Virus record (IMG/VR): IMGVR_UViG_3300032893_000211 | Location: 1-32,704 of that record | Origin: a virus | Length of the DNA: 32,704 nucleotides | Reading direction: 5' to 3' (one strand) | Part shown: positions 6,323 to 32,704 of the stretch, one piece after another | Numbering within the stretch: the stretch's first letter is position 1 | Layout of the letters: each line of letters starts with the position of its first letter | Made by a program: the position numbers and the translations under genes | The notes under the pieces: model-generated | What the model was told of the DNA's origin: nothing | Databases searched by the model: none | What the model saw: the letters and a program-made list of their open reading frames with translations, nothing else

Positions 6323-6366
6323 ACCTTGCGCCTCGCGGGCGCGTTCATCAACAGAAATCTTCTAAC
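6323..6366 (-). promoter_or_regulatory. Dyad-ended promoter/operator element, copy 2, with downstream CAAGGT box
   Basis: On the minus strand the 24-bp element (6343-6366) presents TTGATG at 6351-6346. Seventeen bases further is CAAGGTGGGG (from 6328), a string shared at exactly the same distance with copy 3. CAAGGT may be a divergent -10. The GTG start of the Cas4-like gene is only about 10 bases beyond, so the leader would be very short. The TAG stop of the upstream HNH gene (6362-6364) is part of the element. Confidence 0.55.
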
Positions 6367-12163: not shown

Positions 12164-12207
12164 ACCTTGCGCTCGGTCACTGCGTTAGTCAACAAAAATA
12201 TTCTAAC
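12164..12207 (-). promoter_or_regulatory. Dyad-ended promoter/operator element, copy 3, heading the early operon
   Basis: The 24-bp element here (12184-12207) has perfect inverted ends: GCGTTAG at 12182-12188 and CTAACGC at 12203-12209. On the minus strand, TTGACT (12192-12187) is followed after 17 bases by CAAGGTGGGG, as in copy 2, and then by the strong ribosome-binding site of the 70-aa gene. It lies between that gene and the divergent 72-aa possible regulator. This is the likely start of the leftward early transcript. Confidence 0.6.
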
Positions 12208-19324: not shown

Positions 19325-19533
19325 GCGCCCTCGACGACGCCGTCGCCGGCCGCGAGGTCGTGCAGATCGACCACAACCGCGCCGGCACGCGCATGCGCCT
19401 CGTGGTCCAGGGCGAGGACGGCAAGGAGGAGTCGCTCACGTTCCAGGCCGCGGGCGGGGGCGAGTGGCGTCTCGTCGGCCGCGGCTCCGCGCCGGTCGAC
19501 CTGGAGGGCACGCTCTCGGAGTTTCGTAGGTGA
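19321..19533 (+). CDS. Small hypothetical protein (70 aa)
   Basis: 70 aa starting in an ATGA overlap. Alternating hydrophobic residues (REVVQIDHNRAGTRMRLVV, then EESLTFQA and EWRLVGRG) suggest a small beta-sheet protein, and the end SAPVDLEGTLSEFRR is a helix. In this position (terminase-portal gap) phages often have a small head-tail or regulatory protein of no named family. Function unknown. Confidence 0.65.
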   Translation: MSALDDAVAGREVVQIDHNRAGTRMRLVVQGEDGKEESLTFQAAGGGEWRLVGRGSAPVDLEGTLSEFRR

Positions 19534-19559
19534 GTTAGACTTCCCTCCCGCATCCGCGG

Positions 19560-19571
19560 TACCTTCGTTGC
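19560..19571 (+). promoter_or_regulatory. Putative leaderless start signal for portal gene
   Basis: TACCTT (19560-19565) is exactly six bases before the portal ATG, and no ribosome-binding site is present. The same TANNNT-N6-start geometry recurs at several late genes. No clear -35 (TTAGAC at 19535-19540 has a long 19-base spacer). Confidence 0.4.
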
Positions 19572-21482
19572 ATGGCCCGCTGGAAGTCCCGACGCCGCGC
19601 GAAAGTTCAAGACCAGGTCGACGGCTACGAGCCCAAGGCGCCCGCGCCGGTCGACCCTTGGACGCAGCCCGAGGTGCTCGACGAGCTGGCCACGCGCGCG
19701 CCCTCGAGCGGCAACGCCCGCTGGGACCAGGCCAACCTCGACGGCTTTCGTAATGAATTAACGGGTATCGGCACGTGGGAGAAGGACAAGGCGCTCGGCG
19801 GCCGGCGCGGGGGCATGTCTTTCGAGCTCAACTTCATCTCCCAGGTCGCCGCCGAGTCGCGCTGGCGCGGCTCCGACCTCGGCGCGCGCCTCATCGAAAC
19901 TATCCCCGACGAGATGACGCGCGAGGGCTGGGACGTGCAGGTGCAACCCTCGGACGAGGATGATGAGGCGGATGAGAAAGCGGACGCGTTTCCGCCGAGC
20001 GCCGGCGCGGCCGCGCCTCCACCGCCGATCGCTGCCGCGCCCATGCCCGAGAAGCATCCTGGCGAGATCGACGTCGACGACGCCGGCATCGAATGCGCCG
20101 AGGCGGTGGACGCCAAGCTCGAGGAGCTCGATGCGCTGCAGGTCTTCTGGGAGGCGCTCTGCTACGAGCGCGCGTACGGCGGCGCGGCCATCCTCGTCGG
20201 CGCCGACGACGGCACCGAGGACTTGACCAAGCCGCTCGACGAGGACCGCATCGAGGACGTCAAGCATATCACCGCGTTCTACGGCGGCTGGGACGGCGAG
20301 ATGGTTGCGTGGTCGTGGTACCGCGACGTCGCCGACGCCAACTACGGCAAGCCCGAGATGTACATGCTCCGCAACCTCGGCGTGCCCATCGCCAAGATCC
20401 CGGCCCCCGGTGAGAGGGTGACCAACAACATCCTGCCGCCGATGTCAGGCCCGAACGGCAGCTACGGTCCTCTCATCACCTGGGTGCATGAGTCGCGCTT
20501 GCTCGTCTTCCCGGGCGTCGCCGCGTCCCGCCGCGCGCGCGTGCAGATGCGCGGCTGGGGCGACTCGCTCTTCACCCGCGTCGACCAGGTGCTCCAGCAG
20601 TACGACCAGACCTGGGCGGGCGTCGCGAATCTCATGACCGACTTCGCCCAGGGCATCCTGAAGATCAAGAATCTCGCCCAAAACCTCATGGCCAACAACA
20701 AGGCCGGGACGGGTGTCGTGCGCAACCGCGGCACCGCGCTGAACATGGGCCGATCGATCGCCGGGCTCATGATGATCGACGCCGAGGAGGACTTCAAACG
20801 CGAGATGGCCTCGCTCGCGGGCCTACCCGAGGTGCTCCAGCAGTTCGCGCTGCGCCTCGCCGCCGCCGCGGGTATGCCCGTGAGCTTGCTCATGGGCCAG
20901 GCCCCGGCAGGCTTGAATGCGACGGGCGACAGCGAGATCCGCTGGTTCTATGACAGAGTCGCGAGCTGGCAGCGCAAGCGCATGCTGCCGCAGCTCAAGC
21001 GCCTCGTCGGCCTCATCCTCAAGTCGAAGCAGGGCCCGACCGACGGCGTCGAGCCCGCGCGCTGGAGCGTGGTCAACCGGCCGCTGTACCAGATGAGCGC
21101 CAGCGAGAAGGCGGACCGCTACCTCAAGGTCGCCCAGGCCGACGCGATCTACCTCACCAACAGCGTCGTGACGCCCGAGGAGGTCGCCGCCACGCGCTTC
21201 GCCGGCTCCGAGTACAGCGACGGGCCGATCACGGTCGATTTCGAGGGCCGCGCGGAGATGGCCGCGCAGGACGAGGCGGACAAGGCCGCGGCCGAGAAGG
21301 CGCAGGCCGCGCAGGCTCAGCTCGCCCAGAAGCAGCAGGCTGAGTTGCACGCGGCCAAGGTTGAGGCGACCAAGAACCCGCCGCCGGCAGCCGCGCCAGC
21401 GGAGGAGGGCGTCGACGAAACCGAGAAACCTCCCGAGAAGAAGGTCGCGCCCGTCGCACCCGGGCGCGCTGTGCAGAGCTAG
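19572..21482 (+). CDS. Portal protein (DUF1073 family)
   Basis: 636 aa. The body matches DUF1073-type phage portals: RGGMSFELNFISQVAAESRWRG split around 77-98, LIETIPDEMTREGW, QVFWEALCYERAYGGAAIL, then VHESRLLVFPG, WGDSLFTRVDQVLQQYD and the C-terminal GMPVSLLMGQAPAGLNATGD, followed by a long tunnel-like helix. An Ala/Pro-rich acidic insertion (about 130-160) is variable sequence. The last ~90 residues are low-complexity Ala/Gln/Lys. The dodecameric portal forms the DNA entry vertex and docks terminase. Its TAG shares the CTAG tetranucleotide with the stop of the opposing minus-strand gene. Confidence 0.9.
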   Translation: MARWKSRRRAKVQDQVDGYEPKAPAPVDPWTQPEVLDELATRAPSSGNARWDQANLDGFRNELTGIGTWEKDKALGGRRGGMSFELNFISQVAAESRWRGSDLGARLIETIPDEMTREGWDVQVQPSDEDDEADEKADAFPPSAGAAAPPPPIAAAPMPEKHPGEIDVDDAGIECAEAVDAKLEELDALQVFWEALCYERAYGGAAILVGADDGTEDLTKPLDEDRIEDVKHITAFYGGWDGEMVAWSWYRDVADANYGKPEMYMLRNLGVPIAKIPAPGERVTNNILPPMSGPNGSYGPLITWVHESRLLVFPGVAASRRARVQMRGWGDSLFTRVDQVLQQYDQTWAGVANLMTDFAQGILKIKNLAQNLMANNKAGTGVVRNRGTALNMGRSIAGLMMIDAEEDFKREMASLAGLPEVLQQFALRLAAAAGMPVSLLMGQAPAGLNATGDSEIRWFYDRVASWQRKRMLPQLKRLVGLILKSKQGPTDGVEPARWSVVNRPLYQMSASEKADRYLKVAQADAIYLTNSVVTPEEVAATRFAGSEYSDGPITVDFEGRAEMAAQDEADKAAAEKAQAAQAQLAQKQQAELHAAKVEATKNPPPAAAPAEEGVDETEKPPEKKVAPVAPGRAVQS

Positions 21483-21730
21483 AACACACGCACCGCGAAT
21501 GATAGTGACGGGCCACCCGCTTCGTCGCGCACTTCCACATATGGAGGGGGAGGCAAAAGCGCGCCACGCGCGTCCAATTCGGCGCCCACGGCGGCGAGCA
21601 TTTCCAATTGCCCGATGTGTGCCTGAGTCCCACGCACAGCCGCGGCGCAAGCAGCGAGCATCTCCGCTTCGATTGTGCGGCGCACGTGCTGCAGCGTCAA
21701 AGTGTCCATCTTGGCCACAATCTTCGGCAT
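21479..21730 (-). CDS. Hypothetical protein of minus-strand cassette 1 (83 aa)
   Basis: 83 aa with GGAGG eight to nine bases ahead of the ATG. The N-terminal half is a long amphipathic helix (LTLQHVRRTIEAEMLAACAA, then QLEMLAAVGAELD). The C-terminal half is Pro-rich then beta (LLPPPPYVEVRDEAG, SLSFAVRVF). No family recognised. Second gene of the two-gene leftward cassette between portal and head-morphogenesis genes, it ends convergently with portal in overlapping TAG codons. An accessory (moron-like) role is likely. Confidence 0.62.
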   Translation of the reverse strand: MPKIVAKMDTLTLQHVRRTIEAEMLAACAAAVRGTQAHIGQLEMLAAVGAELDARGALLPPPPYVEVRDEAGGPSLSFAVRVF

Positions 21731-21755
21731 CGTCGTGCCTCCGTCGTGCTCATGG

Positions 21756-21887
21756 TTAGCGCCCCAGCTTCCGCAGCACCGTCACCAGTTGATTCACTTC
21801 CGAGTCGTCGCCGGTCTTGTAGGCCGCTTCGACCGCCAGCTTGAGAGCCGCCATCAGACTCGCCTTGACCGCCGCCTTGTTCTTCAT
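21756..21887 (-). CDS. Small hypothetical protein of minus-strand cassette 1 (43 aa)
   Basis: 43 aa, almost wholly helical: MKNKAAVKASLMAALKLAVE, then AAYKTGDDSEVNQL and VTVLRKLGR. The start ATG lies exactly six bases after TAGATT, itself 16 bases after TTGACA, so a leaderless mRNA is predicted, and there is no ribosome-binding site. It is too short for ordinary gene calling. Support comes from the promoter, which is nearly identical to the one before the other minus-strand cassette, and from the gene's fit between promoter and the 83-aa gene. Confidence 0.62.
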   Translation of the reverse strand: MKNKAAVKASLMAALKLAVEAAYKTGDDSEVNQLVTVLRKLGR

Positions 21888-21959
21888 GGTCCTAATCTAA
21901 CATCGCCTGCGGGTTTGTCAACAAAAATCTTCTAACTCGAATCGTGCTAGCCTTTTCGT
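21888..21959. promoter_or_regulatory. Divergent leaderless promoter, element copy 4
   Basis: The 72 bases between two divergent starts. Minus strand: TTGACA (21921-21916), 16 bases, TAGATT (21899-21894), six bases, ATG. Plus strand: an extended -10-like TGCTAGCCT (TAGCCT at 21948-21953), six bases, GTG at 21960. The 24-bp element (21913-21936) lies in the centre. It is 63/67 identical to the sequence at 30766-30832, with the same 72-base distance between starts. Confidence 0.65.
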
Positions 21960-22937
21960 GTGATTCATACCCGCTCGCGCACCATTGCCATGGTTCGCCT
22001 CCTGCGCGCCGCTGCGCCCGCGCTGCACCGGCGCAAGGGCGGGCGCATGCCGCGCCAGCAGCAGCCCGACGCGATCCGTCTCGAATATTACAAGGCGATC
22101 CGCGCCCGCGCGGTCGAGCCGTCGGTGCGGGCGCTCGCGGGCGTGCGCGACGAGATCTTGCGCCTCCTCGCCGACGAGCGCGCGGAGCGCGGTGATGCTA
22201 GGATGGAGGCCGACGGTCGGAGCCTAGGCGCGCGAGCGCCGGAAGCTGCCCAGGAGCGGGAGGGAGCGACCTGGGGCCGAAGGGCTGACGCCGGCGGGCG
22301 GAAGGACCGCGCCCGCGAGCTCATCGAGAAGGCCGCCGCGCGCGCGACGCAGACCGTGAGCGAGCGCGAGCTGGCGGAGGTGGCGCGGCAGTTCGGCATG
22401 CGCACGAGCGACTTCCAACGCGTGCAGCTTGACCGGCAGGTGCGCCAGGCCGTGGGCGTGCCGCTGTCCTCGGTCGAGAAGCCGACCGTTGACCGCATCC
22501 CCGGCTTCGTGCGCGAGAACGTCGACCTCATCAAGACCGTGCCCAAGCGTTACTTCGAATCGGTCAAGGATGTGACATCGCAGGCGTTCGAGAAGGGGTG
22601 GACAGTCGACAAGCTCTCGGAGGAGATTTCGTCTCGCGGCGACGTCGCTGAGTCGGACGCGCGGAGGATCGCCAGGGACCAGATCGGCAAGCTCAACGCT
22701 GAGGTGAACCAGGACCGCCAACAAGCGTTAGGGGTCACAAGTTATATTTGGCGAGGGGTACTTGATGTGCGCGAACGTGATTCGCACGTCGCGTTTGAGG
22801 GTAGACGATTCGAATGGAACGGTGACGCGCCAATTGGCGTCAGTGGGCAAGTGATTCAGCCTGGTTATGAAATCTGTTGTCGTTGCCACGCCGAGCCGGC
22901 GCTCGACGACATCATCGCTGGCTTGAGCGAGGATTAG
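21960..22937 (+). CDS. Head morphogenesis protein (phage Mu gpF-like)
   Basis: 325 aa. The C-terminal region is a clear Mu F-like minor head domain: SDARRIARDQIGKLNAEVNQ, then SYIWRGVLDVRERDSHVAFE, GRRFEWNGD and PGYEICCRCHAEP. The N-terminal two-thirds are Arg/Ala-rich helices. The protein is needed in small copy number for prohead assembly next to portal. The GTG start lies six bases after TAGCCT in the divergent promoter. Codons from about 22728 to the end are clearly richer in A+T (ggggtcacaagttatatttg) than the first part, a possible recombination boundary within the gene. Confidence 0.88.
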   Translation: MIHTRSRTIAMVRLLRAAAPALHRRKGGRMPRQQQPDAIRLEYYKAIRARAVEPSVRALAGVRDEILRLLADERAERGDARMEADGRSLGARAPEAAQEREGATWGRRADAGGRKDRARELIEKAAARATQTVSERELAEVARQFGMRTSDFQRVQLDRQVRQAVGVPLSSVEKPTVDRIPGFVRENVDLIKTVPKRYFESVKDVTSQAFEKGWTVDKLSEEISSRGDVAESDARRIARDQIGKLNAEVNQDRQQALGVTSYIWRGVLDVRERDSHVAFEGRRFEWNGDAPIGVSGQVIQPGYEICCRCHAEPALDDIIAGLSED

Positions 22938-22948
22938 GCGCTGTTCGC

Positions 22949-22981
22949 ACGTGACACAACCCCGGGTGTAGCCTCGAAAGT
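22949..22981 (+). promoter_or_regulatory. 28-bp late promoter-like repeat, copy 1
   Basis: A 28-base sequence at 22949-22976, beginning ACGTGACACAACC and ending GGGTGTAGCCTCG, matches 31826-31853 in 26 of 28 positions. It contains TAGCCT (22969-22974) seven bases before the ATG of the 85-aa gene. ACAC and GTGT arms form a weak dyad. Both copies follow a stop codon by about 12 bases. Confidence 0.55.
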
Positions 22982-23239
22982 ATGACGATTATCGACGGGC
23001 TTCTGTGGCCAGATTTCAAGGCAGTCTTGAATGGCTGCTTGAAGGCGCCGGCGGTTTTTGCGTACACCGACGGCGGCGGAAACGTTTACGTCGCTGCGCG
23101 CGTAGCTGACGTGTTGTTCTCTTGTGGTATTGCTGCGGGCGCAGACGTCACCGATTTCCACTCCCAATCCTGGTACGACGCAGCCAACACGGCTTCCAAC
23201 CTCAACGGCGCCAAGTTGTACGCCGCCGTTTTCGGTTAG
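22982..23239 (+). CDS. Small hypothetical protein (85 aa)
   Basis: 85 aa: LWPDFKAVLNGCLKAPAVF, YTDGGGNVYVAARVADVLF and DVTDFHSQSWYDAANTAS are its recognisable segments. Mixed alpha/beta, no named domain. It is preceded by the 28-bp repeat also found before the tail sheath gene and lacks a ribosome-binding site, so strong leaderless late expression is possible. It is followed nine bases on by the 112-aa gene. Base use is closer to neutral than in the neighbours. It may be a small virion protein. Confidence 0.65.
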   Translation: MTIIDGLLWPDFKAVLNGCLKAPAVFAYTDGGGNVYVAARVADVLFSCGIAAGADVTDFHSQSWYDAANTASNLNGAKLYAAVFG

Positions 23240-23248
23240 GAGAAATCG

Positions 23249-23587
23249 ATGTATTTCTTGGGCTCTATCACGGGCCCGAGCGGCGGCGCCGCCGGGGTCT
23301 CGGTCAACAATCAGCAGTCGGGAGGCTTCGCCATTCCGCCGGGCACCCGATCGATCTACCTCGTGCCGCAAAATCCGCCGACGCTATTCGAGTTCGGCAG
23401 TGCCACGGGGTCGACGGGCGCGACCTTCCAGACGACCGTCGGCCGCGGAGCCATCCTCGACTCGACCGGCATCTACGGCCCGTTTCCGTGCGTGGTGGCG
23501 CCCGGGCAGCAGACCGTGGTCTCCATTTGCAACAACACGGGCGCGCCCGTCTCGGTCCGCGTCTACGCCAGCCCGGTGGCGGGATGA
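23249..23587 (+). CDS. Probable small virion protein (112 aa)
   Basis: 112 aa with a TAGGAG ribosome-binding site eight bases ahead. Gly/Thr/Ser-rich beta sequence: GSITGPSGGAAGVSVNNQQS, IPPGTRSIYLVPQNPP, PGQQTVVSICNNTGAPVSVR. This reads like a jelly-roll or Ig-like exposed structural domain. No family recognised. It overlaps a tiny 17-codon ORF (ATGA). Confidence 0.65.
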   Translation: MYFLGSITGPSGGAAGVSVNNQQSGGFAIPPGTRSIYLVPQNPPTLFEFGSATGSTGATFQTTVGRGAILDSTGIYGPFPCVVAPGQQTVVSICNNTGAPVSVRVYASPVAG

Positions 23588-23637
23588 AGCACGTCCGGCC
23601 CAAGACGAAGCCACAGCCAAGGCCGAAACCGCGATGA
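23584..23637 (+). CDS. Minute Pro/Lys/Arg-rich ORF (17 aa)
   Basis: The peptide MKHVRPKTKPQPRPKPR starts in an ATGA overlap with the 112-aa gene and ends in an ATGA overlap with the 79-aa gene. It may be a true basic peptide or only a ribosome-coupling relay between its neighbours. Without it, the 79-aa gene would have an untranslated gap and no good ribosome-binding site. Confidence 0.4.
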   Translation: MKHVRPKTKPQPRPKPR

Positions 23638-23873
23638 GCGACGAGGACTTCGAAAAGCTGCGCTTTCGCATTCGTGCCGAGCGGAAGCTCCGCGAATGGA
23701 ATGCCACCAATCGAGTCGACCGCGTTGGCGACGGCGGGCTACTCACCGATGTGCGCGACGACGTCGAAGCGGCGCGGCCACATTGCCCCTGGTGCGAGGA
23801 GCCGCTCGACGACAAGGGCGAGTGCGCGCGCCGCTGCCGCGCCTCGCGCGTGAACAGGACGGACAACCGATGA
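23634..23873 (+). CDS. Small zinc-finger-like protein (79 aa)
   Basis: 79 aa starting in an ATGA overlap. A charged helical N-terminus (DEDFEKLRFRIRAERKLREW) is followed by CPWCEEPLDDKGECARRC, a four-cysteine motif likely to bind zinc. It overlaps the protease-scaffold gene (ATGA). Function unknown; position suggests a head-assembly accessory or DNA-binding protein. Confidence 0.6.
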   Translation: MSDEDFEKLRFRIRAERKLREWNATNRVDRVGDGGLLTDVRDDVEAARPHCPWCEEPLDDKGECARRCRASRVNRTDNR

Positions 23874-25636
23874 GTCAGCGAAGCGACGTCACGCCGCCGG
23901 GCCGCGAGGCTCAGGTGCGCGCGCTCAAGAACAAGCCCGGCGTCGACAATCCGTACGCCGTGGCCTGGGCTTCGTACGAGAAGGGCGACGCGACCTACGA
24001 CGGCGCCAAGTGCGATGACTGCGGGCAGATGGTCCCGGTCGTCGACGCCAAGTACGTCGACCATGTCGCGCCCGGTGGCAGCTACGGCGAGCCGACGATG
24101 AGCAACGCCAACATGGATGCGGCGACGTCCATGTGCGACGGCTCAGGCGCGATGTGCAAGTACGACACGATCGAACATCGCGGCGGCCAGTGGGTGCTCA
24201 TCGCCAAGTCGAGCGGCAAGGTGCTCGGGACGCACCCGACCAAGGAGGTCGCTGAGGCGCAGGAGCGCGCGGTCCAGGCGAACAAGCACGCCGACGACGT
24301 CGTAATTCCCGGCACCGTCAAGCGCTGGGAGCGCATCGACTTCGCCCCCGGCGAGCTGCCGCGGGCGCGCGTCACCGCGGATGGCTTCCTCCAGGTCGCC
24401 GGCCGCGTCGCGCGAACGGGCATCCAGGAGTACCGCGACGGCCAGGGCGGCATCCGCAAGGAGCTGCGGCTGCCCGAGGAGGTGCGCAAGTCGCTGCCCA
24501 CCTTCCCGCTGCAGCCGATGACCAACCTCCACCCGTCGGAGATGGTCTCGCCCGACAACGCGCAGAAGTACGTCGTGGGCGCGGTCGGCGAGGCCGAGCT
24601 CAAGTCCGACGGATGGGTCACGGCGCCGCTGTCGCTCTGGCGCGCCGACGCCATCGAGGCCGCGCGCAACGGTCGCGTGCAGCTCTCGGTCGGCTACACG
24701 TGCCGGCTCGAGACGCAGGACGGCGAGTGGCAGGGGCAGAAGTACGACGCGGTCCAGCGCGACATCGTCGTCAACCACGTCGCGCTCGTCGACGCCGCGC
24801 GCGCCGGCGACGCCGCGCGCCTGCGCCTCGACGCGGGCGACGCGGAGGCCGTGTCGTTTGCGTGTGATACAGGCGAACCGTTACCTTCAATTCGTGAGGC
24901 AAAACTGATGGCGAAGCTGACGATCGACGGGATGGTCTTCGAGGTGCAGGACGCGAACGCGCAGGCCGCCCTCGACGGCTTCGTCGCCCGCGTCCAGAAG
25001 GACCGCGACGAGAAGGTGGCCGCGGAGAAACTCCGCGCCGACAACGCGGAGAAGCTGCGCGAGGTCGCGGTCAAGGAGAAGGAAGCCCTCCAGGGCAAGT
25101 ACGACTCCAAGATGGCCGAGGACAAGCAGCCCATCAAGCTCGACGCGGCCGAGATCACAGTCGCCGATGCGGCCGACCCGGCGAAGTTCGCCGCGTTCGT
25201 CCAACCCATCGTCGAGGCCCGTGCGATGGCGCGCGCGTCGCTGCTCGTCGAGGCGCGCAAGCACCTCGGCGCCAACGAGAAGTTCGACGCCTACGCCGGC
25301 AAGGACGGCAAGATGGTGCCGGCCAAGACCGACGACGAGATCAAGCGGCTCGTCATCGGCAAGCTCAAGCCTTCTATCAAGCTCGACGGCAAGGGCGCCG
25401 AGTACGTGCAGGCGCTCTACGACGACGCGGTGGCGACGGCCAAGCCGCAGCCGAGCGCGCTCGACCTCGCCCGCGCCACGGGCGGCCCGGCCATTGTGCC
25501 GCAGCTCGCCGGCGAGCGCTCGGACGAGACCGCGCAGCCCGATGCGGAGACCGCGCGTAAGGCGATGATCGAACGCATGCTGCGCGCCAACCCCAACCAC
25601 CCCAAGCACGACGCCGCTCTGGCGTCGAAGGTGTAG
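23870..25636 (+). CDS. DUF2213 capsid maturation protease with fused scaffold
   Basis: 588 aa from an ATGA overlap. Residues 1-~150 hold a variable domain with CDDCGQM and a CDGSGAMC pair. Residues ~155-335 match the DUF2213 prohead protease: VIPGTVKRWERIDFAPGELP, ARTGIQEYRDGQGGIRKELR, LPEEV, TNLHPSEMV, VGAVGEAELKSDGWVTAPLS, VQLSVGYTCRLE and VNHVALVDAARAGDAARLRL. From residue 347 on there is a charged coiled coil (RVQKDRDEKVAAEKLRADNA and on) and helical tail, typical of a scaffold. An internal ATG at 24908 (GAGG upstream) starts exactly at the scaffold part. The protease would cleave capsid and scaffold in maturation. Confidence 0.85.
   Translation: MSQRSDVTPPGREAQVRALKNKPGVDNPYAVAWASYEKGDATYDGAKCDDCGQMVPVVDAKYVDHVAPGGSYGEPTMSNANMDAATSMCDGSGAMCKYDTIEHRGGQWVLIAKSSGKVLGTHPTKEVAEAQERAVQANKHADDVVIPGTVKRWERIDFAPGELPRARVTADGFLQVAGRVARTGIQEYRDGQGGIRKELRLPEEVRKSLPTFPLQPMTNLHPSEMVSPDNAQKYVVGAVGEAELKSDGWVTAPLSLWRADAIEAARNGRVQLSVGYTCRLETQDGEWQGQKYDAVQRDIVVNHVALVDAARAGDAARLRLDAGDAEAVSFACDTGEPLPSIREAKLMAKLTIDGMVFEVQDANAQAALDGFVARVQKDRDEKVAAEKLRADNAEKLREVAVKEKEALQGKYDSKMAEDKQPIKLDAAEITVADAADPAKFAAFVQPIVEARAMARASLLVEARKHLGANEKFDAYAGKDGKMVPAKTDDEIKRLVIGKLKPSIKLDGKGAEYVQALYDDAVATAKPQPSALDLARATGGPAIVPQLAGERSDETAQPDAETARKAMIERMLRANPNHPKHDAALASKV
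24894..24910 (+). promoter_or_regulatory. Internal ribosome-binding site for separate scaffold
   Basis: GAGG, eight bases, then ATG at 24908 (MAKLTIDGMVFEV), located at the junction between protease and scaffold domains. This resembles nested protease/scaffold genes such as lambda C/Nu3. The context is locally more AT-rich. Confidence 0.4.
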
Positions 25637-25640
25637 GACC

Positions 25641-26237
25641 ATGGCCCAGACCACCGTTTCCGCGGGCGGCCAGTCGATCGGCGTCGCCGGTCAGCTCGCC
25701 GACTCGGCCGAGGGGCGCGACGTCGTCTCCGGCTTCAACAAGGAGGCGACGGCCCAGATCCCGTTCGGCTTCGGCGTGCGCGTGCAGCCGGGCTCGAACG
25801 GCGACGGCTTCCTGCTCGCGACCGGCTTCTCGGGCGGCGCGCCCGGGACCGAGGTCGCCGGCATCAACGTCTTCTCGTTCAACCACTTCAAGCAGGGCGC
25901 GGCCGACCCGCTCGGCAACTTCGCCGGCGACCTCGGCGGCTCGGGCCTGCTCCCGAACGCGGGCCTGCAGGTGCTCCGCGAGGGCCGCGTGCTCGTCCCG
26001 GTCGAGATCAACGTCGTCGCCGGCGACCGCGCCTGGTGCCGCGGCATCGCGACCGGCACCACGTCGAACACGGCGGGCATTTGGTCGGGCACGGGCTACA
26101 ACGTGGCGGGCGCCGGCTCGTCCTACATGATCGACTGCACCCGCCAGGGCGTGTTCCGCTCGGGCACCTACACGGCGGCCGACGGCGTCACGAAGGTGGC
26201 GGTCCTCGAGGTCGACTTCACCAACAAGTCGTTCTAA
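25641..26237 (+). CDS. Probable capsid decoration/stabilising protein (198 aa)
   Basis: 198 aa, Gly/Ala/Thr-rich and beta. The start TTVSAGGQSIGVAGQLADSA resembles the N-terminus of phage head-decoration/structural cation-type proteins found just before DUF2184 capsid genes. Later segments EATAQIPFGFGVRVQPGSN and VLREGRVLVPVEINVVAGD are typical of DUF2190-like or similar trimers. The family name is not certain. Four bases after the protease stop and 10 bases before the capsid gene. Confidence 0.72.
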   Translation: MAQTTVSAGGQSIGVAGQLADSAEGRDVVSGFNKEATAQIPFGFGVRVQPGSNGDGFLLATGFSGGAPGTEVAGINVFSFNHFKQGAADPLGNFAGDLGGSGLLPNAGLQVLREGRVLVPVEINVVAGDRAWCRGIATGTTSNTAGIWSGTGYNVAGAGSSYMIDCTRQGVFRSGTYTAADGVTKVAVLEVDFTNKSF

Positions 26238-26247
26238 GGAGCGTCCC

Positions 26248-27252
26248 ATGCGTTTGCCCCCGAACTATCGCTACGACGCCGAGACCCGCGGGGACGCGGG
26301 CGAGACGCTCTTCGTCGAGCGCGCGCTCCTCTGGGTTGAAACTGAGACCTACAACACGTTGTTCCCGCCGCTCGAGGGCCTGAAGTACGTGCCCATCGAC
26401 ATGAGCGCGTCCGAGGGCGCCAAGGGGACCGCGTACAAGCAGTACACGCGGACCGGTATCGCCAAGCTCGTCACCGAGCGCGGCGGCGACCTGCCGACGT
26501 CGAAGCTCTTCGTCCGCGAGTTCCAGCACCAGTTCTACCGCCTCGGCATGTCGTACGAGTACACGCTCGACGACCTGCTTGCGGCGCAGATGTCGGCGCA
26601 TAACGGCGGCCCGGCGCTCAACATCGACATGGAGCAGGCGATCGCCGCGCGCGAGGGCATCAACAAGGGCCTCGACGCGATCTCAGGCATCGGCTCGGCG
26701 ACGTCGTCGACCATCCCCGGCCTGTCGGTGGGCATCGGCCCCGACGTCGGCTTGCTCGGCCTCCTGAACCAGCCTAACGCCTCGACCTACACGCCGGCCA
26801 CCGGCGCGCAGGGCTCGACGCAGTGGCTCTTCAAAACGCCGGACGAGAAGATCGCGGACATCGTCGGCCAGTACGGCGCGATGGAGTCGGGCACCTACAA
26901 GATCTTCGTGCCGGACACGTTCCTCCTTCCCATTCCGCAATTTCGCGGCGCGGCGAGCACTCGTTTGGGCGACGGCTCGGATGAGACGGCCATCTCGCTC
27001 CTCAGGACGAAGATGCTCCCGGGCGTCACCATCGATTCGTGGCAGTACTGCGCGGGCGCGGGCTCGGGCGGCGTCGACCGCTGCGTGGCGTATATCAACA
27101 ATAAGCGCTACGTCAAGCACATGATCTCGCAGATGTTCCGCCAGATGCCGCCGCAGTACGAGAATCTCGAGTTCTCGGTCGACTGCTTGGCGAAAACCGC
27201 TGGAGTTTTCGCACCTTACCCCATATCTATCAGCTATATGGACAGTATCTAG
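26248..27252 (+). CDS. Major capsid protein (DUF2184 family)
   Basis: 334 aa with AAGGAG eight bases ahead of the ATG. Sequence features of the DUF2184 capsid family: ETLFVERALLWVETETYNTL, FPPLEGLKYVPIDMSASEGA, then REFQHQFYRLGMSYEYTLDD and the C-terminal VDRCVAYINNKRYVKHMISQ and GVFAPYPISISYMDSI. It should form the HK97-fold icosahedral shell. The reading frame is whole, and the GIY-YIG gene behind it has not interrupted it. The last ~20 codons are more AT-rich and include a perfect 8-bp hairpin sequence (27190-27212). Confidence 0.92.
   Translation: MRLPPNYRYDAETRGDAGETLFVERALLWVETETYNTLFPPLEGLKYVPIDMSASEGAKGTAYKQYTRTGIAKLVTERGGDLPTSKLFVREFQHQFYRLGMSYEYTLDDLLAAQMSAHNGGPALNIDMEQAIAAREGINKGLDAISGIGSATSSTIPGLSVGIGPDVGLLGLLNQPNASTYTPATGAQGSTQWLFKTPDEKIADIVGQYGAMESGTYKIFVPDTFLLPIPQFRGAASTRLGDGSDETAISLLRTKMLPGVTIDSWQYCAGAGSGGVDRCVAYINNKRYVKHMISQMFRQMPPQYENLEFSVDCLAKTAGVFAPYPISISYMDSI
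27190..27212 (+). repeat. Perfect inverted repeat at the end of the capsid gene
   Basis: GCGAAAAC (27190-27197), seven-base loop, GTTTTCGC (27205-27212), inside codons for LAKTAGVFA. It is not followed by a T-run, so a terminator is unlikely. It could be a recognition or cleavage region for the endonuclease encoded just downstream. Confidence 0.45.
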
Positions 27253-27340
27253 CGTAATTCCAGCTAGTTAGTCCGTATCTCCAAATTAACTCTTCTCAAT
27301 TAGGTAAACGATGAGTAAGATGTCCTCTTAGGAGGTCATC

Positions 27341-28123
27341 ATGAAGCTCATCATCTACGGCTTGATCGACCCCCGCGACGGGGCGGTCCACTACATCGGC
27401 AAGTCGTCCTCGGGGAAGAAGCGCCCGCGCGAGCACGGTATCGCGCGAAAGCTCGATCTTGATTTCACACCCAAGGCGCGCTGGATTCGGGCTCTTCAAC
27501 AGGAGGGTCTGGAGTTCGGCGTGGTCGTGCTTGAGCAGATCGAACGTCGCGAGGACCTCGCCGCCGCGGAGATTCGGTGGATCGCCTTCGGCCGTAGCGA
27601 AGGTTGGCCGCTTAAGAACATCACTGAAGGCGGCGATGGGCGCCAGCCGGGCTACAGGGTGCCGGCCGAGGAAGTCGAGCGCGCTCGGCGCGAATGGGCA
27701 CTCGGAATTCGCAAGCACAAGCCCGAGACGATCGAGAAGCTGCGCGCGCTCAAGCTGGGAGTGCCACGCAGCGAAGAAACCAAAGCGAAAATTCGTGAAG
27801 CTCGATTGCGCCAAGCGCCATTTTCGGTGGAAGTGCGACAGCGCATGAGCGAGATCAAGCTAGGAAAGCCTCCGAATAACAAAGGCATGAAGATGTCTAC
27901 CGAGACGCGCGCCAAGATGAGCGCGGCGCACAAGGCGCGCCACGCTATGCATCCAGTCTCCGCCGAGACGCGCGAGAAGATCGCCGCCTCCAAGAGGGGT
28001 CGCGCATGCCCTGATCTCGCGGAATGGCATCGTACCGAAGCAGGTAAAGCACATGCTGAAAAGCTGCGTCAAATCACGCTGGCGCGATGGGCAAAGAAGC
28101 GAGGAGAAACCCCTACGACTTGA
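27341..28123 (+). CDS. GIY-YIG homing endonuclease with NUMOD3 repeats
   Basis: 260 aa with a perfect AGGAGG six bases ahead of the ATG. The N-terminal catalytic domain has KLIIYGLIDPRDG and HYIGKSSSGKK (GIY and YIG strands), RPREHG and PLKNITEGGDG. Four NUMOD3-like DNA-binding repeats follow: RSEETKAKIREARL, SVEVRQRMSEIKLG, STETRAKMSAAHKA and SAETREKIAASKRG. This is the free-standing SegA/Mob type, which cuts a neighbouring conserved gene in related phages. Its location directly after the capsid gene suggests that the capsid gene's end is the target. The 88-base leader is AT-rich and foreign in composition. Confidence 0.93.
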   Translation: MKLIIYGLIDPRDGAVHYIGKSSSGKKRPREHGIARKLDLDFTPKARWIRALQQEGLEFGVVVLEQIERREDLAAAEIRWIAFGRSEGWPLKNITEGGDGRQPGYRVPAEEVERARREWALGIRKHKPETIEKLRALKLGVPRSEETKAKIREARLRQAPFSVEVRQRMSEIKLGKPPNNKGMKMSTETRAKMSAAHKARHAMHPVSAETREKIAASKRGRACPDLAEWHRTEAGKAHAEKLRQITLARWAKKRGETPTT

Positions 28124-28155
28124 CAAACTCGCGATTGCGGCGCGATTCTGAGTGC
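28120..28155 (+). promoter_or_regulatory. Putative leaderless promoter after homing endonuclease
   Basis: TTGACA (28120-28125) overlaps the endonuclease stop, an 18-base spacer follows, then GATTCT (28144-28149) and six bases to the ATG. The first 14 bases, TTGACAAACTCGCG, equal those of the minus-strand promoter at 30796-30783. It would restart late transcription behind the inserted gene. Confidence 0.5.
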
Positions 28156-28691
28156 ATGCAGACCGTCGTGATCAACAATCGTGAGGGGCTCGTCCAGGGC
28201 CAGCTCCAGCCCGACCCCGAGCTCGTCGCCAAGATGACCAAGGGGTCCATCCCCATCAACCGGTGCGTGACGCTCCTGCCAGGGGCGAACCTCGTCGAGG
28301 CCGCCGACCTGGAGGCGCTGGGCAGGAACCCGGCATTCGCCAAGCGCTTCGAGACGAAGATCCAGCGCTCGCCGGCGCCCGAGCAGAACCCCGAGAAGGT
28401 GGGCCTGCCCGAGCTGCAGCTCATGGGCGTCGACGGCAAGCTCATCGACCAGACGCAACCGGTGCCCAAGGACGCCAAGCCCGTGGCGCCGCTGCAGGTC
28501 GACAAGGACCACCCGCTCAAGGCGCTTAAGGCCGAGGTCGCCAAGGCGCTCATCGACGAGACCTTCGTCGTCTCCACGCTGCGCGCGTGGCTGGGCAGCG
28601 AGGGCCGGCCCGAGGTGCGCCTTGTTCTGACCCAGCGCATCGCCGAGCTCGACGCGGCGCCCGAGGGCGGCCCGGCGGCGGCGGGACGATA
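28156..28691 (+). CDS. Probable head/head-tail protein (178 aa)
   Basis: 178 aa; the stop TAA is at 28690-28692 and overlaps the next ATG by one base. Start ATG at 28156, not the upstream codon that overlaps the endonuclease. The N-terminal part is beta (QTVVINNREGLVQGQLQPD, INRCVTLLPGANLVEAADLE). The C-terminal half is helical with a Pro-rich linker. Such proteins occur between capsid and DUF4054 genes in related phages but have no named function here. A leaderless promoter is predicted. Confidence 0.68.
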
Positions 28692-29006
28692 ATGTTCCCG
28701 CTGATCAACATGACGTTCTCGTGCGACGGGTGCAACAAGACCGCGCATGTGTCGCTGCGCCCAGACGGGAATCAGGAGAATCCGCATCACACCTTACCGC
28801 AGGGCTGGTTGCGCTGGACGCAGGGCTACGATCGCTGCCTTGATGCGAGTCCATATGGACGCGAGGTTCCGTGGGTCGCGTGCAGCGAAAAGTGCGTCGC
28901 TACCGTCAAGGAGCTCATCAAGGGCTTGAAGCAGCGCGCCGCCGCGTTGCAGGTCGAGCAAGAGTTGGCCGCTATCGCGTTTGTTCTCGGCCCTGTGGGC
29001 GAGTAG
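28692..29006 (+). CDS. Small hypothetical protein with Cys motif (104 aa)
   Basis: 104 aa starting in a TAATG overlap. FSCDGCNKTAHVSL is a CxxC that, with CSEKC later, may bind zinc. HTLPQGWLRW and PYGREVPWVACSEKCVATVK form the core, and the C-terminus is helical. The pattern is that of phage zinc-ribbon proteins of unknown role. Codons are more AT-rich than in the flanking genes. Confidence 0.65.
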   Translation: MFPLINMTFSCDGCNKTAHVSLRPDGNQENPHHTLPQGWLRWTQGYDRCLDASPYGREVPWVACSEKCVATVKELIKGLKQRAAALQVEQELAAIAFVLGPVGE

Positions 29007-29009
29007 CCG

Positions 29010-29342
29010 GTGGCGATCACCTGGAGCGACGTCGTCGGCATCGCCCCCGAGCTGGTCTCAGTCGAGACGGCGACGCAGACCGCCATCCTCGCCGTGGTGT
29101 CGCGCCAGATCGACGCTGACGCCTGGGGCGAGTTCGCCGACGACGGCGCCAAGTACCTCGCCGCGCACCTCGCCTCCATCCGCGGCAATGAGGGCTTGGT
29201 CACCACCGAGACGCTCGGGCAGATGTCGCGCTCCTACGCGCTCCCGCCCGGCATCATGGGCTCGCTCGCGTTGTCGACCTACGGCGCGGAGTATAGGCGC
29301 TTGATCGATATCGCCGTCGGCGTGCCCGGGATCATCGTCTGA
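29010..29342 (+). CDS. Head-tail adaptor (DUF4054 family)
   Basis: 110 aa from a GTG three bases after the previous stop. DUF4054-like features: ITWSDVVGIAPELVSVETAT, GEFADDGAKYLAAHLASI, then the MSRSYALPPG loop and STYGAEYRRLID at the end. The family sits at the portal-tail connection (gp6/gp15-like connector). Next gene starts at a TGATG overlap. Confidence 0.85.
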   Translation: MAITWSDVVGIAPELVSVETATQTAILAVVSRQIDADAWGEFADDGAKYLAAHLASIRGNEGLVTTETLGQMSRSYALPPGIMGSLALSTYGAEYRRLIDIAVGVPGIIV

Positions 29343-29605
29343 TGCCTATCATCGTCAAGAAGCGCTCCAATTTCGAGTGGGACGTCGTCGAGGAGAAGGG
29401 CGTCCACGAGCACGTGCTCGAGACGCACCCGTTCGAGAGCGCCGCGCTGGCGCGCATGCGCGAGTTAAACGCGCGCCGCGCGCAGGAGGCCATCGGCACG
29501 CACGGGACCTTCACTATCGGCCCGGCGGGGGTCGCCGCCGTCGGCTGCACGTGCTCCAAGGGCATCCGCCTAGAGGCCGTCGCCTGCCCGGTGCATGGTG
29601 TCTGA
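29342..29605 (+). CDS. Small hypothetical protein (87 aa)
   Basis: 87 aa starting in a TGATG overlap. Charged beta-alpha start (IIVKKRSNFEWDVVEEKGVH), helix (ESAALARMRELNARRAQEAI) and a C-terminal VGCTCSKGIRLEAVACPVHG with three Cys and a His. No family recognised. It overlaps the next gene by 11 bases. Confidence 0.62.
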   Translation: MPIIVKKRSNFEWDVVEEKGVHEHVLETHPFESAALARMRELNARRAQEAIGTHGTFTIGPAGVAAVGCTCSKGIRLEAVACPVHGV

Positions 29606-30002
29606 CGAATCACGCGCCCCCGAGGCGCAGGCCGCCGTCTCGCGCTACGCCTTCCTCGCCGGGCCCGTGCGAGGGCTCGACCTGCAGAAGCGCGTGCCCG
29701 AGTTCATGCGCCGGCGCGGTTGGCCGGCGGAGGATGAGGATCTAGCCACGTGTATCGCAGCCGCCGTGGGGCTGTCCAAGATCGGCGCCGGCGCCACGCC
29801 CATCTACCGACCCCCGACCGCCGACGCGCTCCGCGGCGCGTGGCCGGCCGACGGCGCGCACACCGGTCGCTGCCAGCTTGCCGCGCAGGCGCAGGGACTT
29901 ATGCTCGGCCGCGAGCCGACGTGCAAGCCGCACTTCCAGTGCATCTCGGCGAGCGAGCTGGTCGTCAAGCTCGACCTCGACGAGCTGCTCCAGAATCGAT
30001 AG
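29595..30002 (+). CDS. Hypothetical protein in head-tail region (135 aa)
   Basis: 135 aa. Segments include SRYAFLAGPVRGLDLQKRVP, EFMRRRGWPAEDEDLATC, GLSKIGAGATPIYRPPTAD and a C-terminal ISASELVVKLDLDELL. There is no named domain. Start at ATG 29595, overlapping the preceding gene; the GTG right after it is an alternative. Position between DUF4054 and gp10-like genes suggests a neck or head-completion accessory. Confidence 0.62.
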   Translation: MVSDESRAPEAQAAVSRYAFLAGPVRGLDLQKRVPEFMRRRGWPAEDEDLATCIAAAVGLSKIGAGATPIYRPPTADALRGAWPADGAHTGRCQLAAQAQGLMLGREPTCKPHFQCISASELVVKLDLDELLQNR

Positions 30003-30004
30003 CC

Positions 30005-30502
30005 ATGGCACGCGGCAAGAAGATTACCGTCAAGGACAAGGACCTTGGCTGGGTCGACTTTTTCAAGCGCGTGGGAGAGATGGGTCTCGATCGCCTGCGC
30101 GTCGGCGTGCTCGCCGACAGCGCCGCGGGGGGTCTACACGTCGAGGGCGCGGACCTCACGGTGGCGGAGATCGCCGCGGTCAACGAGTTCGGCACCGAAG
30201 ACGGCCACATCCCCGCGCGCTCGTTCTTGCGCTCCAGCTTCGACGCCAACCGCGAGGCCAACGTGCGTTTGTTCGACAAGCTTCTCGGCGCTGTGCTCGA
30301 CGGCAAGATGCCGATCGACCAAGCGCTCGGGCTTCTCGGCCTCAAGATGTCAAGCGACGTGAAGAAGAAAATCGCCTCCGATGTTCCGCCGCCGAACGCG
30401 CAGCGCACTATCGAACAGAAGGGCTCGGCTCGCACCCTCGTCGACACGGGCCGCATGCTCAACGCGGTGACGTGGGCAGTAGATAAGGACAAGAAGGGCT
30501 AG
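30005..30502 (+). CDS. HK97 gp10-like / virion morphogenesis protein
   Basis: 165 aa from ATG two bases after the previous stop. VAEIAAVNEFGTEDGHIPAR followed by SFLRSS, and LVDTGRMLNAVTWAV near the C-terminus, are the paired signatures of the HK97_gp10 / phage virion morphogenesis family of head-tail or tail-completion proteins. Its TAG shares a CTAG tetranucleotide with the stop of the opposing minus-strand gene, as portal does. Confidence 0.84.
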   Translation: MARGKKITVKDKDLGWVDFFKRVGEMGLDRLRVGVLADSAAGGLHVEGADLTVAEIAAVNEFGTEDGHIPARSFLRSSFDANREANVRLFDKLLGAVLDGKMPIDQALGLLGLKMSSDVKKKIASDVPPPNAQRTIEQKGSARTLVDTGRMLNAVTWAVDKDKKG

Positions 30503-30762
30503 CGAATCTGCTCGAAACTGGCGAGAAACGCGAAGAGTTCCATACCGCAACCACCGCCTGAGCTGAGAGCCGTACCGGTACTACGCGCGCCATGAACGTA
30601 CATGGGGGCGCCATTGTACTTCTGCTTGGCGCAGGCGCGCGAAATCGTAACAGTGTGCTCCGAATTGTTCTTCAATGCCCAGACTTGACCCTTGCCGATA
30701 AAGGGGACTTCCTTAGCGACCGTCTGCCAGCCCTCAGTCACCGTCACCAACATCGTTTTCAT
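30499..30762 (-). CDS. Hypothetical protein of minus-strand cassette 2 (87 aa)
   Basis: 87 aa: MKTMLVTVTEGWQTVAKEV, PFIGKGQVWALKNNSEHTVT, then Cys- and Gly-rich ACAKQKYNGAPMYVHGA and ALSSGGGCGMELF. Beta-rich with four small loops and an aromatic tail. No family recognised. The ATG lies six bases after TAGATT, so the mRNA should be leaderless. As with cassette 1, it runs against the late genes, begins at the 72-bp divergent promoter and ends in a CTAG shared stop. A moron-like accessory role is likely. Confidence 0.65.
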   Translation of the reverse strand: MKTMLVTVTEGWQTVAKEVPFIGKGQVWALKNNSEHTVTISRACAKQKYNGAPMYVHGARSTGTALSSGGGCGMELFAFLASFEQIR

Positions 30763-30834
30763 ACCCCTAATCTAACATCGCCCGCGAGTTTGTCAACAAA
30801 AATCTTCTAACTCGAATTGTGCTAGGCTTTTCTC
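30763..30834. promoter_or_regulatory. Divergent leaderless promoter, element copy 5
   Basis: Exactly 72 bases between divergent starts, as in copy 4. Minus strand: TTGACA (30796-30791), 16 bases, TAGATT (30774-30769), six bases, ATG. Plus strand: TGCTAGGCT (TAGGCT at 30823-30828), six bases, GTG at 30835. The 24-bp element is at 30788-30811 and is identical to copy 4. Confidence 0.65.
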
Positions 30835-31233
30835 GTGGACATCGACTCGCTCATCCAGTCGTTCATGACCCAGGGCGGGTCCTACACGGTCACGCGGCGC
30901 CAGCGCGCCGCCTACTCGCGCGGCATCGCCCAGCCCACCAACGACTTCACCATCACCATCAAGGCGTGCGTGCAGCCGGCGACGGGCAAGGACCTCTTGC
31001 GCCTACCCGAGGGGCGCCGCTCGAACGAGACGCGCGTGCTCTTCACCACGACCGAACTCGACTGCGGCGACGTCGACAGCGACTTCGAGGCGGACACCGT
31101 CACCATCGACGGCGCCTTCTGGGAAGTTCAGCATGTAGAATTCTGGACCCAAGGCGGGTTCCTCAACCAGACGCGGCCGGCCGGGTACCGCGTCATCGTG
31201 CAGGCGCCGACGCCAGGGACGGATGACGTATGA
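30835..31233 (+). CDS. Head-tail connector/neck protein (132 aa)
   Basis: 132 aa from a leaderless-type GTG. DIDSLIQSFMTQGGSYTVTR, RLPEGRRSNETRVLFTTTEL, then WEVQHVEFWTQGGFLNQTRP: a beta-rich protein as found before LIC_12616-type genes in related myophages, probably a head-closure or neck protein. No firm family name. It overlaps the next gene (ATGA). Confidence 0.7.
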   Translation: MDIDSLIQSFMTQGGSYTVTRRQRAAYSRGIAQPTNDFTITIKACVQPATGKDLLRLPEGRRSNETRVLFTTTELDCGDVDSDFEADTVTIDGAFWEVQHVEFWTQGGFLNQTRPAGYRVIVQAPTPGTDDV

Positions 31234-31814
31234 GCTGGAACGACGTCGGCGACGCCATCCAGGCCGCCATCGTGCGCGCCAGCGGCCTCGCCGCGAGTCA
31301 GGTCGTCTGGAAGGACCAGGATCGCGGCCAGCCGCTCACCGACTACGTGGCGCTGCGCCTCGGCGGCGGCATCACGCTCGGCATCGACTACATCCAAAGC
31401 TCGACCGACTTGACCCGGCCGCTCGGGCAGGAAATCGAGCTCAAGGTGCGCGGCCGGCGCGAGGTGCCGCTCGAGGTCGAGTGCTTCACCTCCGAGTCGG
31501 TCTCGAGCCGCTCGGGCTCGGCGCTCGAGCTGTGCTCGCGCATCATGGCCGGCCTGACGCTGCCCTCCGTCCGCGCCATCCTCGCCGCGCAGGACGTCTC
31601 GCCGTTCGACCCGGGCACGCCGAATTGGATCCCCGATGTCCCGTCCACCCGTTTCCGCGGGCGCGCCGTGGCGACCGTGCGCTGCTACATGCCGCCGCCG
31701 ACCGCGGTCGAGTACGTCGGCTTCATCGCGCGCGTCTCGGGCACCGTGACCATCCAGGGCGGCGCCAACGGCGACCAGACCCAGACGTTCGACTCCGACC
31801 AGGCCGACGACTAG
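31230..31814 (+). CDS. Neck/tail terminator protein (LIC_12616 family-like)
   Basis: 194 aa from an ATGA overlap. An N-terminal helix (NDVGDAIQAAIVRASGL) is followed by the WKDQDRGQPLTDYVALRLGG segment and ELKVRGRREVPLEVECF, in the order of the LIC_12616 phage neck terminator family. GRAVATVRCYMPPPTAVEYV near the end is the C-terminal strand. It caps the tail tube next to the sheath gene. Its stop is followed by the second 28-bp repeat. Confidence 0.78.
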   Translation: MSWNDVGDAIQAAIVRASGLAASQVVWKDQDRGQPLTDYVALRLGGGITLGIDYIQSSTDLTRPLGQEIELKVRGRREVPLEVECFTSESVSSRSGSALELCSRIMAGLTLPSVRAILAAQDVSPFDPGTPNWIPDVPSTRFRGRAVATVRCYMPPPTAVEYVGFIARVSGTVTIQGGANGDQTQTFDSDQADD

Positions 31815-31825
31815 CGCTCGCTGGA

Positions 31826-31857
31826 ACGTGACACAACCGGGGGTGTAGCCTCGGTAC
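31826..31857 (+). promoter_or_regulatory. 28-bp late promoter-like repeat, copy 2
   Basis: Matches 22949-22976 in 26 of 28 bases, differing only by GG for CC in the centre. TAGCCT (31846-31851) lies six bases before the sheath ATG. No ribosome-binding site is seen. Confidence 0.55.
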
Positions 31858-32704
31858 ATGTCCCTGGCCGACATCGTCAACGTCACGTTCACATTGCAGA
31901 ACCCGGGTGTGACGGCGCAGGGGTTCGGCATCCCGCTCATCGTCTCGCACAGCGCCACCTGGGCCGAGCGCACGCGCACCTACTCCAGCTTGTCCGCCGT
32001 CGCCGCCGACTTCGGCGCGGCCACGCCCGAGTACCTGGCGGCGCAGAAGATGTTCTCCCAGACGACGGGCATCCAGACCATCATGATCGGCCGCGCGGCC
32101 AACAAGCCGACGCAGCAGTACGACGTGGGCGTCAACAGCGTCGTCGCCAACGCCGTCTACAAGCTGCGCGTCGCCGCCGACAACGGCTCGGCCGTTTTCA
32201 CCTCGCAGGAGTGCGACTACACGGCGACGCCGGCGGCTGCGTGGGCCTCGGGGACGAACTACACGCAGGGCCAGCTCGTCACGAACGACTCGCCGGCCAA
32301 GTACTACATCTGCATCACCAGCGGCACGTCGGCCGGCTCGGGCGGCCCCACGGGGACCAACGCCGACATCACCGACAACACCGTCCACTGGATGTACGCG
32401 GGCGGCTCGGCCACCGTCGGCACGACCACCAACGACGCCATCGTTTACGGGCTCAAGCTCCTCGTCGACGCGCTCGCCGCGCCGGCGCTGCCCGTGACGA
32501 CCAGTCTCCAGGGCTCCGTCGGCTCGAAGACGTTTCGCATGGTGGCGACCGCCGCCGGGACGTACTTCGCGACCGAAGTGCTCGACATGTCGTACCTCTC
32601 GGTCGCGCAGGACCACGCCGACCCGGGCATCGCCGCCGACCTCGCCGCCATCAAGCTGGCCTCGAGCGCGTGGTACGGCCTCATCACGCTCTTCAATTCG
32701 TCGC
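31858..32704 (+). CDS. Tail sheath protein (DUF3383 family), 3' end outside window
   Basis: First 282 codons, open to the edge of the window. SLADIVNVTFTLQNPGVTAQ, GFGIPLIVSHSATWAERTRT, YSSLSAVAADFG and PEYLAAQKMFSQTTGIQTIM form the N-terminal domain of DUF3383 contractile-tail sheaths, which marks the phage as myovirus-like. From about residue 125 to 182 there is an inserted domain (AAWASGTNYTQGQLVTN, KYYICITSGTSAGSGGPTG, TVHWMYAGG) resembling carbohydrate-binding-like modules common in exposed tail proteins. The sheath fold then resumes. Starts at ATG behind the 28-bp repeat. Confidence 0.85.
   Translation, partial: MSLADIVNVTFTLQNPGVTAQGFGIPLIVSHSATWAERTRTYSSLSAVAADFGAATPEYLAAQKMFSQTTGIQTIMIGRAANKPTQQYDVGVNSVVANAVYKLRVAADNGSAVFTSQECDYTATPAAAWASGTNYTQGQLVTNDSPAKYYICITSGTSAGSGGPTGTNADITDNTVHWMYAGGSATVGTTTNDAIVYGLKLLVDALAAPALPVTTSLQGSVGSKTFRMVATAAGTYFATEVLDMSYLSVAQDHADPGIAADLAAIKLASSAWYGLITLFNSS

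Follow-up and report, generated by a model that had tools for sequence, protein, structure and literature searches.

How does an essential late operon tolerate the insertion of genes between its members? The question is raised by two short minus-strand gene cassettes that lie between virion genes of an uncultivated myovirus (a tailed phage), represented by an IMG/VR virus record of 32,704 bases, the whole of which was analysed and is referred to here as the window. Its plus strand codes for terminase, a Portal_3-type portal, MuF, protease, capsid, neck and tail sheath, while the minus strand of its first 12 kb or so carries early-type genes. The window was compared with G1 (IMGVR_UViG_3300032893_000028; loci L010 and L028-L031; about 74 kb, circular), the ends of which carry an 85-bp repeat, so that the assembly is probably complete and circular; with G2 (3300037068_000153; loci L012 and L032-L035; 77 kb); with L11 (3300032893_003056, locus L011); with L055 (3300037510_000448); and with a distant relative, L24 (3300036045_000023, locus L024), which is apparently the same phage as L023. 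Portal identity to the window is 95% for L11 and 93% for G1, and the portal proteins of cultured phages match at about 22-32%. No close cultured relative was found (megablast against cultured phages gave no match), nor did genome contigs reveal a prophage or a host. L007 was dropped as a relative because it is a chance match within an AT-rich contig, and the 18-mer TTTGTCAACAAAAATCTT also matches AT-rich phages that have promoter-type sequence only in common.

Between each cassette and the start of the virion gene that follows lies a copy of a 67-bp divergent element, which is re-used at the two junctions:

21891-21957, unstranded: divergent element copy 1, with a minus-strand -35 at 21916-21921 and -10 at 21894-21899, and the plus half at 21937-21957
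30766-30832, unstranded: divergent element copy 2, with a minus-strand -35 at 30791-30796 and -10 at 30769-30774, and the plus half at 30812-30832

The copies are identical at 63 of 67 bases (21891-21957 against 30766-30832), whereas no other 67-mer of the window matches at more than 39 of 67, and for a 37-nt stretch of the element 0 chance occurrences are expected. The coordinates, open reading frames and repeated divergent element described in an initial annotation of this DNA are thus real, the 63/67 identity being recovered. The element is carried by three sequences only: the window, G1 and L11. Identity between element copies is 88% for the two in the window, 90% for the neck orthologues and 94% for window and L11; the portal/MuF copies of the window and G1 are more divergent (71%). 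As the window copies are about as alike as orthologues, and the G1 portal/MuF copy differs, it is probable that the promoter part was either copied from one site to another or replaced. Folding of the element is not stronger than that of shuffled sequences (z +1.06), and no stem-loop was found within it.

The minus half of the element has the layout AGATTTTTG-TTGACA-16 nt-TAGATT-6 nt-ATG in both copies, AGATTTTTG being A/T-rich. The two copies are the top sigma-70-like sites within 19500-32704 (10/12, with TG preceding the -10), and at both cassettes the ATG lies 12 nt past the first base of the -10 hexamer. This common ATG position, which the initial annotation had listed among the features that the cassettes share, is indeed seen, but neither the promoter nor its spacing to the start is cassette-specific, as both are general to these phages. 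The 22-nt core TTGTCAACAAAAATCTTCTAAC occurs at five sites in the window (with up to three mismatches), the extra ones lying at 3, 6345 and 12186, and the minus half is therefore not peculiar to the two cassettes:

6345-6366, minus strand: core copy heading a minus-strand early-type operon
12186-12207, minus strand: core copy heading a minus-strand early-type operon

The third extra copy, at the start of the record (position 3), likewise heads a minus-strand operon, as does the same core in many instances in G1 and G2, which points to a general promoter of the early-type minus strand. Among the core copies of the window, G1 and G2 the start codon is often 34-38 nt downstream of TTGAC. Several copies in the early block have a different -10 region (GCAAGGT and then Gs), the cassette copies having TAGATT or TATATT. 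The -35 and the A/T-rich stretch upstream of it are also present in unrelated AT-rich phages, which fits a promoter read by the host polymerase. Given such a general early-class promoter, with the start codon at about +1, the host polymerase probably reads the cargo early. We infer early expression of the 'early-type' genes from their content and strand; for the cargo, the shared promoter sequence by itself suggests such timing.

The first cassette occupies the portal/MuF junction, which is organized as follows:

19572-21482, plus strand: portal gene, left neighbour of cassette 1 (PF06381, 2e-67; phrog_146)
21446-21468, minus strand: terminator-like hairpin just downstream of cassette 1 (8-bp GC stem, T-rich tail)
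21479-21482, unstranded: CTAG comprising the P0001 stop and the portal stop, a secondary feature
21479-21730, minus strand: P0001, distal cargo ORF of 83 aa (GC3 0.69)
21728-21753, minus strand: constant leader ATGAGCACGACGGAGGCACGACGATG ahead of the distal cargo, also found in L11 and G2, where other cargo follows it
21756-21887, minus strand: P0002, proximal ORF of 43 aa with a phage-like codon score
21960-22937, plus strand: MuF gene, right neighbour (PF04233, phrog_324), with GTG 12 nt past the first base of TAGCCT

Alignment of the relatives at this junction, the check proposed in the initial annotation, revealed three different cargo sets, as well as three sites without cargo, between conserved flanks. 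The cargo comprises P0002 and P0001 in the window; P0002, frameshifted by a 1-bp insertion, together with an unrelated cysteine-containing ORF in L11; and an unrelated 35-aa ORF in G1. The cassette is absent from G2, L055 and L24. In L11 the second ORF takes the place of P0001 exactly from ATG to TAG, and the flanks are about 93% identical. Between G1 and the window homology resumes at the -35 region, so that the breakpoint lies inside the element. P0001 and the 35-aa ORF of G1 are each found in one sequence only, and are thus without evidence of conservation. The leader occurs as ATGAACACGAYGGAGRGCACGACGATG ahead of differing cargo in L11 and G2, the window version being one base short; it is another constant piece beside changing cargo.

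The portal stop of L11 is a GAGTAG located 48 nt upstream of the CTAG in the same frame; a 15-bp deletion removed the GAGTAG in the window, and the window portal therefore runs on to the CTAG. The portal/MuF cassette of G1 has no CTAG stop overlap. The stop overlap is thus present at both window cassettes, but it is not the fixed part that it had been taken to be, as L11 and G1 differ at portal/MuF. The CTAG was also considered as an insertion signal and rejected, the overlap not being kept at portal/MuF in these two relatives. A hairpin similar to that downstream of P0001 lies between the portal stop and the CTAG in L11; terminator-like sites defined by consensus match only number 11, against 7.5 expected in shuffles.

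The second cassette lies at the neck/head-closure junction and has a single cargo ORF:

30005-30502, plus strand: neck / tail completion gene, left neighbour of cassette 2 (phrog_222, 4e-41; start by codon score)
30499-30502, unstranded: CTAG comprising the P0003 stop and the neck gene stop, also present in G1
30499-30762, minus strand: P0003, cargo ORF of 87 aa, with a 92% identical protein in G1
30835-31233, plus strand: head protein / head-closure-like gene, right neighbour (phrog_939, 8e-18), with GTG 12 nt past the first base of TAGGCT

P0003, which is common to the window and G1 (dN 0.038, dS 0.276, dN/dS about 0.14), is under purifying selection in the minus-strand frame. The cassette is absent from the neck junction of G2, L055 and L24. 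Exchangeable cargo behind a conserved element, as the initial annotation had envisaged for both sites, is therefore borne out at portal/MuF, where other cargo and empty sites occur, but the neck junction displays presence and absence only. No terminator-like site was found downstream of cassette 2, and its transcript would thus continue antisense to the neck gene.

The plus half differs in its distribution from the minus half. The sequence TCGAATYGTGCTAGNCTTTYC (with up to three mismatches) occurs five times in the compared genomes, always at cassettes (two in the window, two in G1 and one in L11). In all five a GTG start is located 12 nt past the first base of a -10-like TAGNNT, one copy reading TATCTT; the promoter features of this half are limited to the TAGNNT and a TG, with no good -35. 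At empty sites the downstream gene starts on or just past the upstream stop (TAGTG in L24, GTGA in G2 and TAGCGCGTG in L055). The plus half is probably a second leaderless promoter for the next virion gene: insertion would break the tight gene junction, and the plus half would supply a new start signal, probably giving MuF or the head-closure gene a leaderless start after the junction has been split.

The cargo genes differ in base composition from their surroundings, GC3 being 0.69 in P0001 and P0003 and 0.84 in P0002, compared with 0.90-0.93 in core genes. The window cargo, described as unrecognised in the initial annotation, gave no significant match to Pfam, PHROGs, PADLOC or cultured phages, and P0001, P0002 and P0003 matched no HTH family. 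The structure model of P0003 (mean pLDDT 44) is unusable; that of P0001, built from a single sequence, is mostly one long helix (pLDDT 70.5), and the other four models lie at 46-56. Neither a tyrosine nor a serine integrase was found in the circular 74-kb G1 or in G2, and lysogenic conversion, one of the roles suggested earlier for the cargo, is thus unsupported. A role in host takeover or counter-defence is our guess.

We consider it likely that these loci are moron-like antisense cassettes with an early-class promoter, together with a second promoter serving to restart the late gene that the insertion interrupts. Accessory cassettes would have been inserted antisense between head genes of the myovirus late operon, and their cargo would probably be transcribed by host RNA polymerase as soon as infection begins, with no dependence on late transcription. 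The junctions thus look like swappable gene slots, the cargo of which is probably made early. It is possible, though we hold this more tentatively, that the element is a dedicated two-way module, providing both early antisense cargo and a leaderless late-gene start, such that cargo is swapped without loss of virion expression and ORFs are replaced from start to stop.

It could be argued that the element is instead a mobile regulatory repeat of the PeSL kind, its copies acting as homology patches for recombination and the cassettes arising as a by-product. The element does recur at intergenic places, the portal/MuF breakpoint between the window and G1 falls inside it, and the window portal copy resembles the neck-site copies more than it does the G1 portal copy. 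The swap between the window and L11, however, took place at start and stop codons, outside the element, which lacks a stem-loop, and the minus half is conserved as expected of a promoter, at a fixed distance to start codons. We therefore regard a mobile repeat as unlikely. An operator or antisense control site, at which a regulator binds or a minus transcript dampens the late genes, the ORFs being incidental, is considerably less probable still: although the upstream AGATTTYTG is more conserved than the -10, and the minus strand is antisense to late transcription, such a site does not account for purifying selection on P0003 in the minus-strand frame or for cargo swapped at codon boundaries, the core is no more than weakly palindromic and no integrase was found. 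The initial annotation had itself named a case against its proposal, in which one promoter was recently duplicated beside two fixed genes with no exchange of cargo. The same neck cargo in the window and G1 would agree with this, as would the 88% identity of the window copies, which is near the 90-94% of orthologous copies; it is contradicted, unless the L11 and G1 loci are assembly chimeras, by the three cargo sets at portal/MuF and the empty sites in three relatives, and we find it scarcely credible.

The expression of morons does not depend on the late operon and often takes place from the prophage. In lambdoid phages the moron is an ORF that lies inserted among phage genes and brings a promoter and a terminator of its own (PMC1524935). 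The cassettes described here are similar in that small inserted ORFs of odd base composition (GC3) separate genes that are direct neighbours in relatives (the empty sites of G2, L055 and L24) and have their own predicted promoter (10/12 sigma-70-like sites). With respect to the terminator, a hairpin with a T-rich tail follows cassette 1 and none follows cassette 2, such sites being not well above shuffles. In contrast with morons, the cassettes are antisense to the operon, their promoter is common to the phages' own early operons, a plus-strand promoter-like half is present at the cassette edge, and there is no sign of lysogeny.

PeSL units in T4-type phages were reportedly the subject of work by Arbiol in 2010 and Comeau in 2014. 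These mobile regulatory units, as cited via PMC4503421 and PMC3950731, were proposed for T4-type phages and consist of an early promoter and a stem-loop. By these secondary accounts the element shares with PeSL units a repeated early-type promoter between genes that is tied to gene shuffling; it differs from them in having no stem-loop and two promoter-like, divergent halves, and in belonging to an unrelated phage group. In acr-aca operons, small changing cargo lies behind a strong sigma-70-type promoter, and acr genes are classed as morons (PMC9410906, PMC6538845). The variable small cargo behind what appears to be a strong sigma-70-like promoter is comparable; however, no HTH regulator gene was recognised among the window cargo, the promoter has no clear inverted repeat, and the cargo is antisense and unrelated to known families. 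What distinguishes the system as a variant is that the cassettes are antisense, that the plus half occurs at cassettes only, and that an ORF was replaced from start to stop codon. In its combination of the plus half with the TTGACA half, the element provides a sequence handle for accessory genes in the structural operons of uncultivated phages, and offers a testable answer to how an essential late operon tolerates insertion. Genes in such slots are candidate host-takeover or counter-defence factors.

The same minus promoter precedes cargo at other junctions. At the MuF/next-gene junction of G2 it heads a minus cassette with a 172-aa ORF, an HNH_3 endonuclease and a small ORF, and in the tail region of G1 (L028:16930-17439, minus strand) a cassette that encodes a 169-aa lipoprotein-like matrixin metalloprotease (PF00413, 6.6e-7). 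In G2 (L012:10960-11260) an inverted copy of the last bases of MuF (CTCGACGAGGAATAGCGCAAC) lies about 140 bp further downstream, where the minus cassette has its distal end. The MuF/next-gene junction of L24 has a minus ORF (L024:11320-11769) that ends in a CTAG common with the plus gene, without the TTGACA element.

A homing endonuclease gene (NUMOD3, phrog_314; 27341-28123) follows the capsid gene in the window only, and a GC-rich hairpin takes its place in G1 and G2. The plus-strand ORFs at 22982-23239 and 28692-29006, which have no family matches, may be plus-strand accessory genes; both junctions are closed in G1, and the second is closed in G2 too. A plus-strand repeat with dyad symmetry, GTGACACAACCSSGGGTGTAGCCT, is located at 22928-22976 and 31805-31853, where it precedes the post-MuF gene (22982 in the window) and the sheath gene, with the ATG 12-13 nt past TAGCCT. 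G1 and L055 carry it at both of these junctions as well, G2 and L24 carry it in part, and it resembles a late promoter accompanied by a regulator site.
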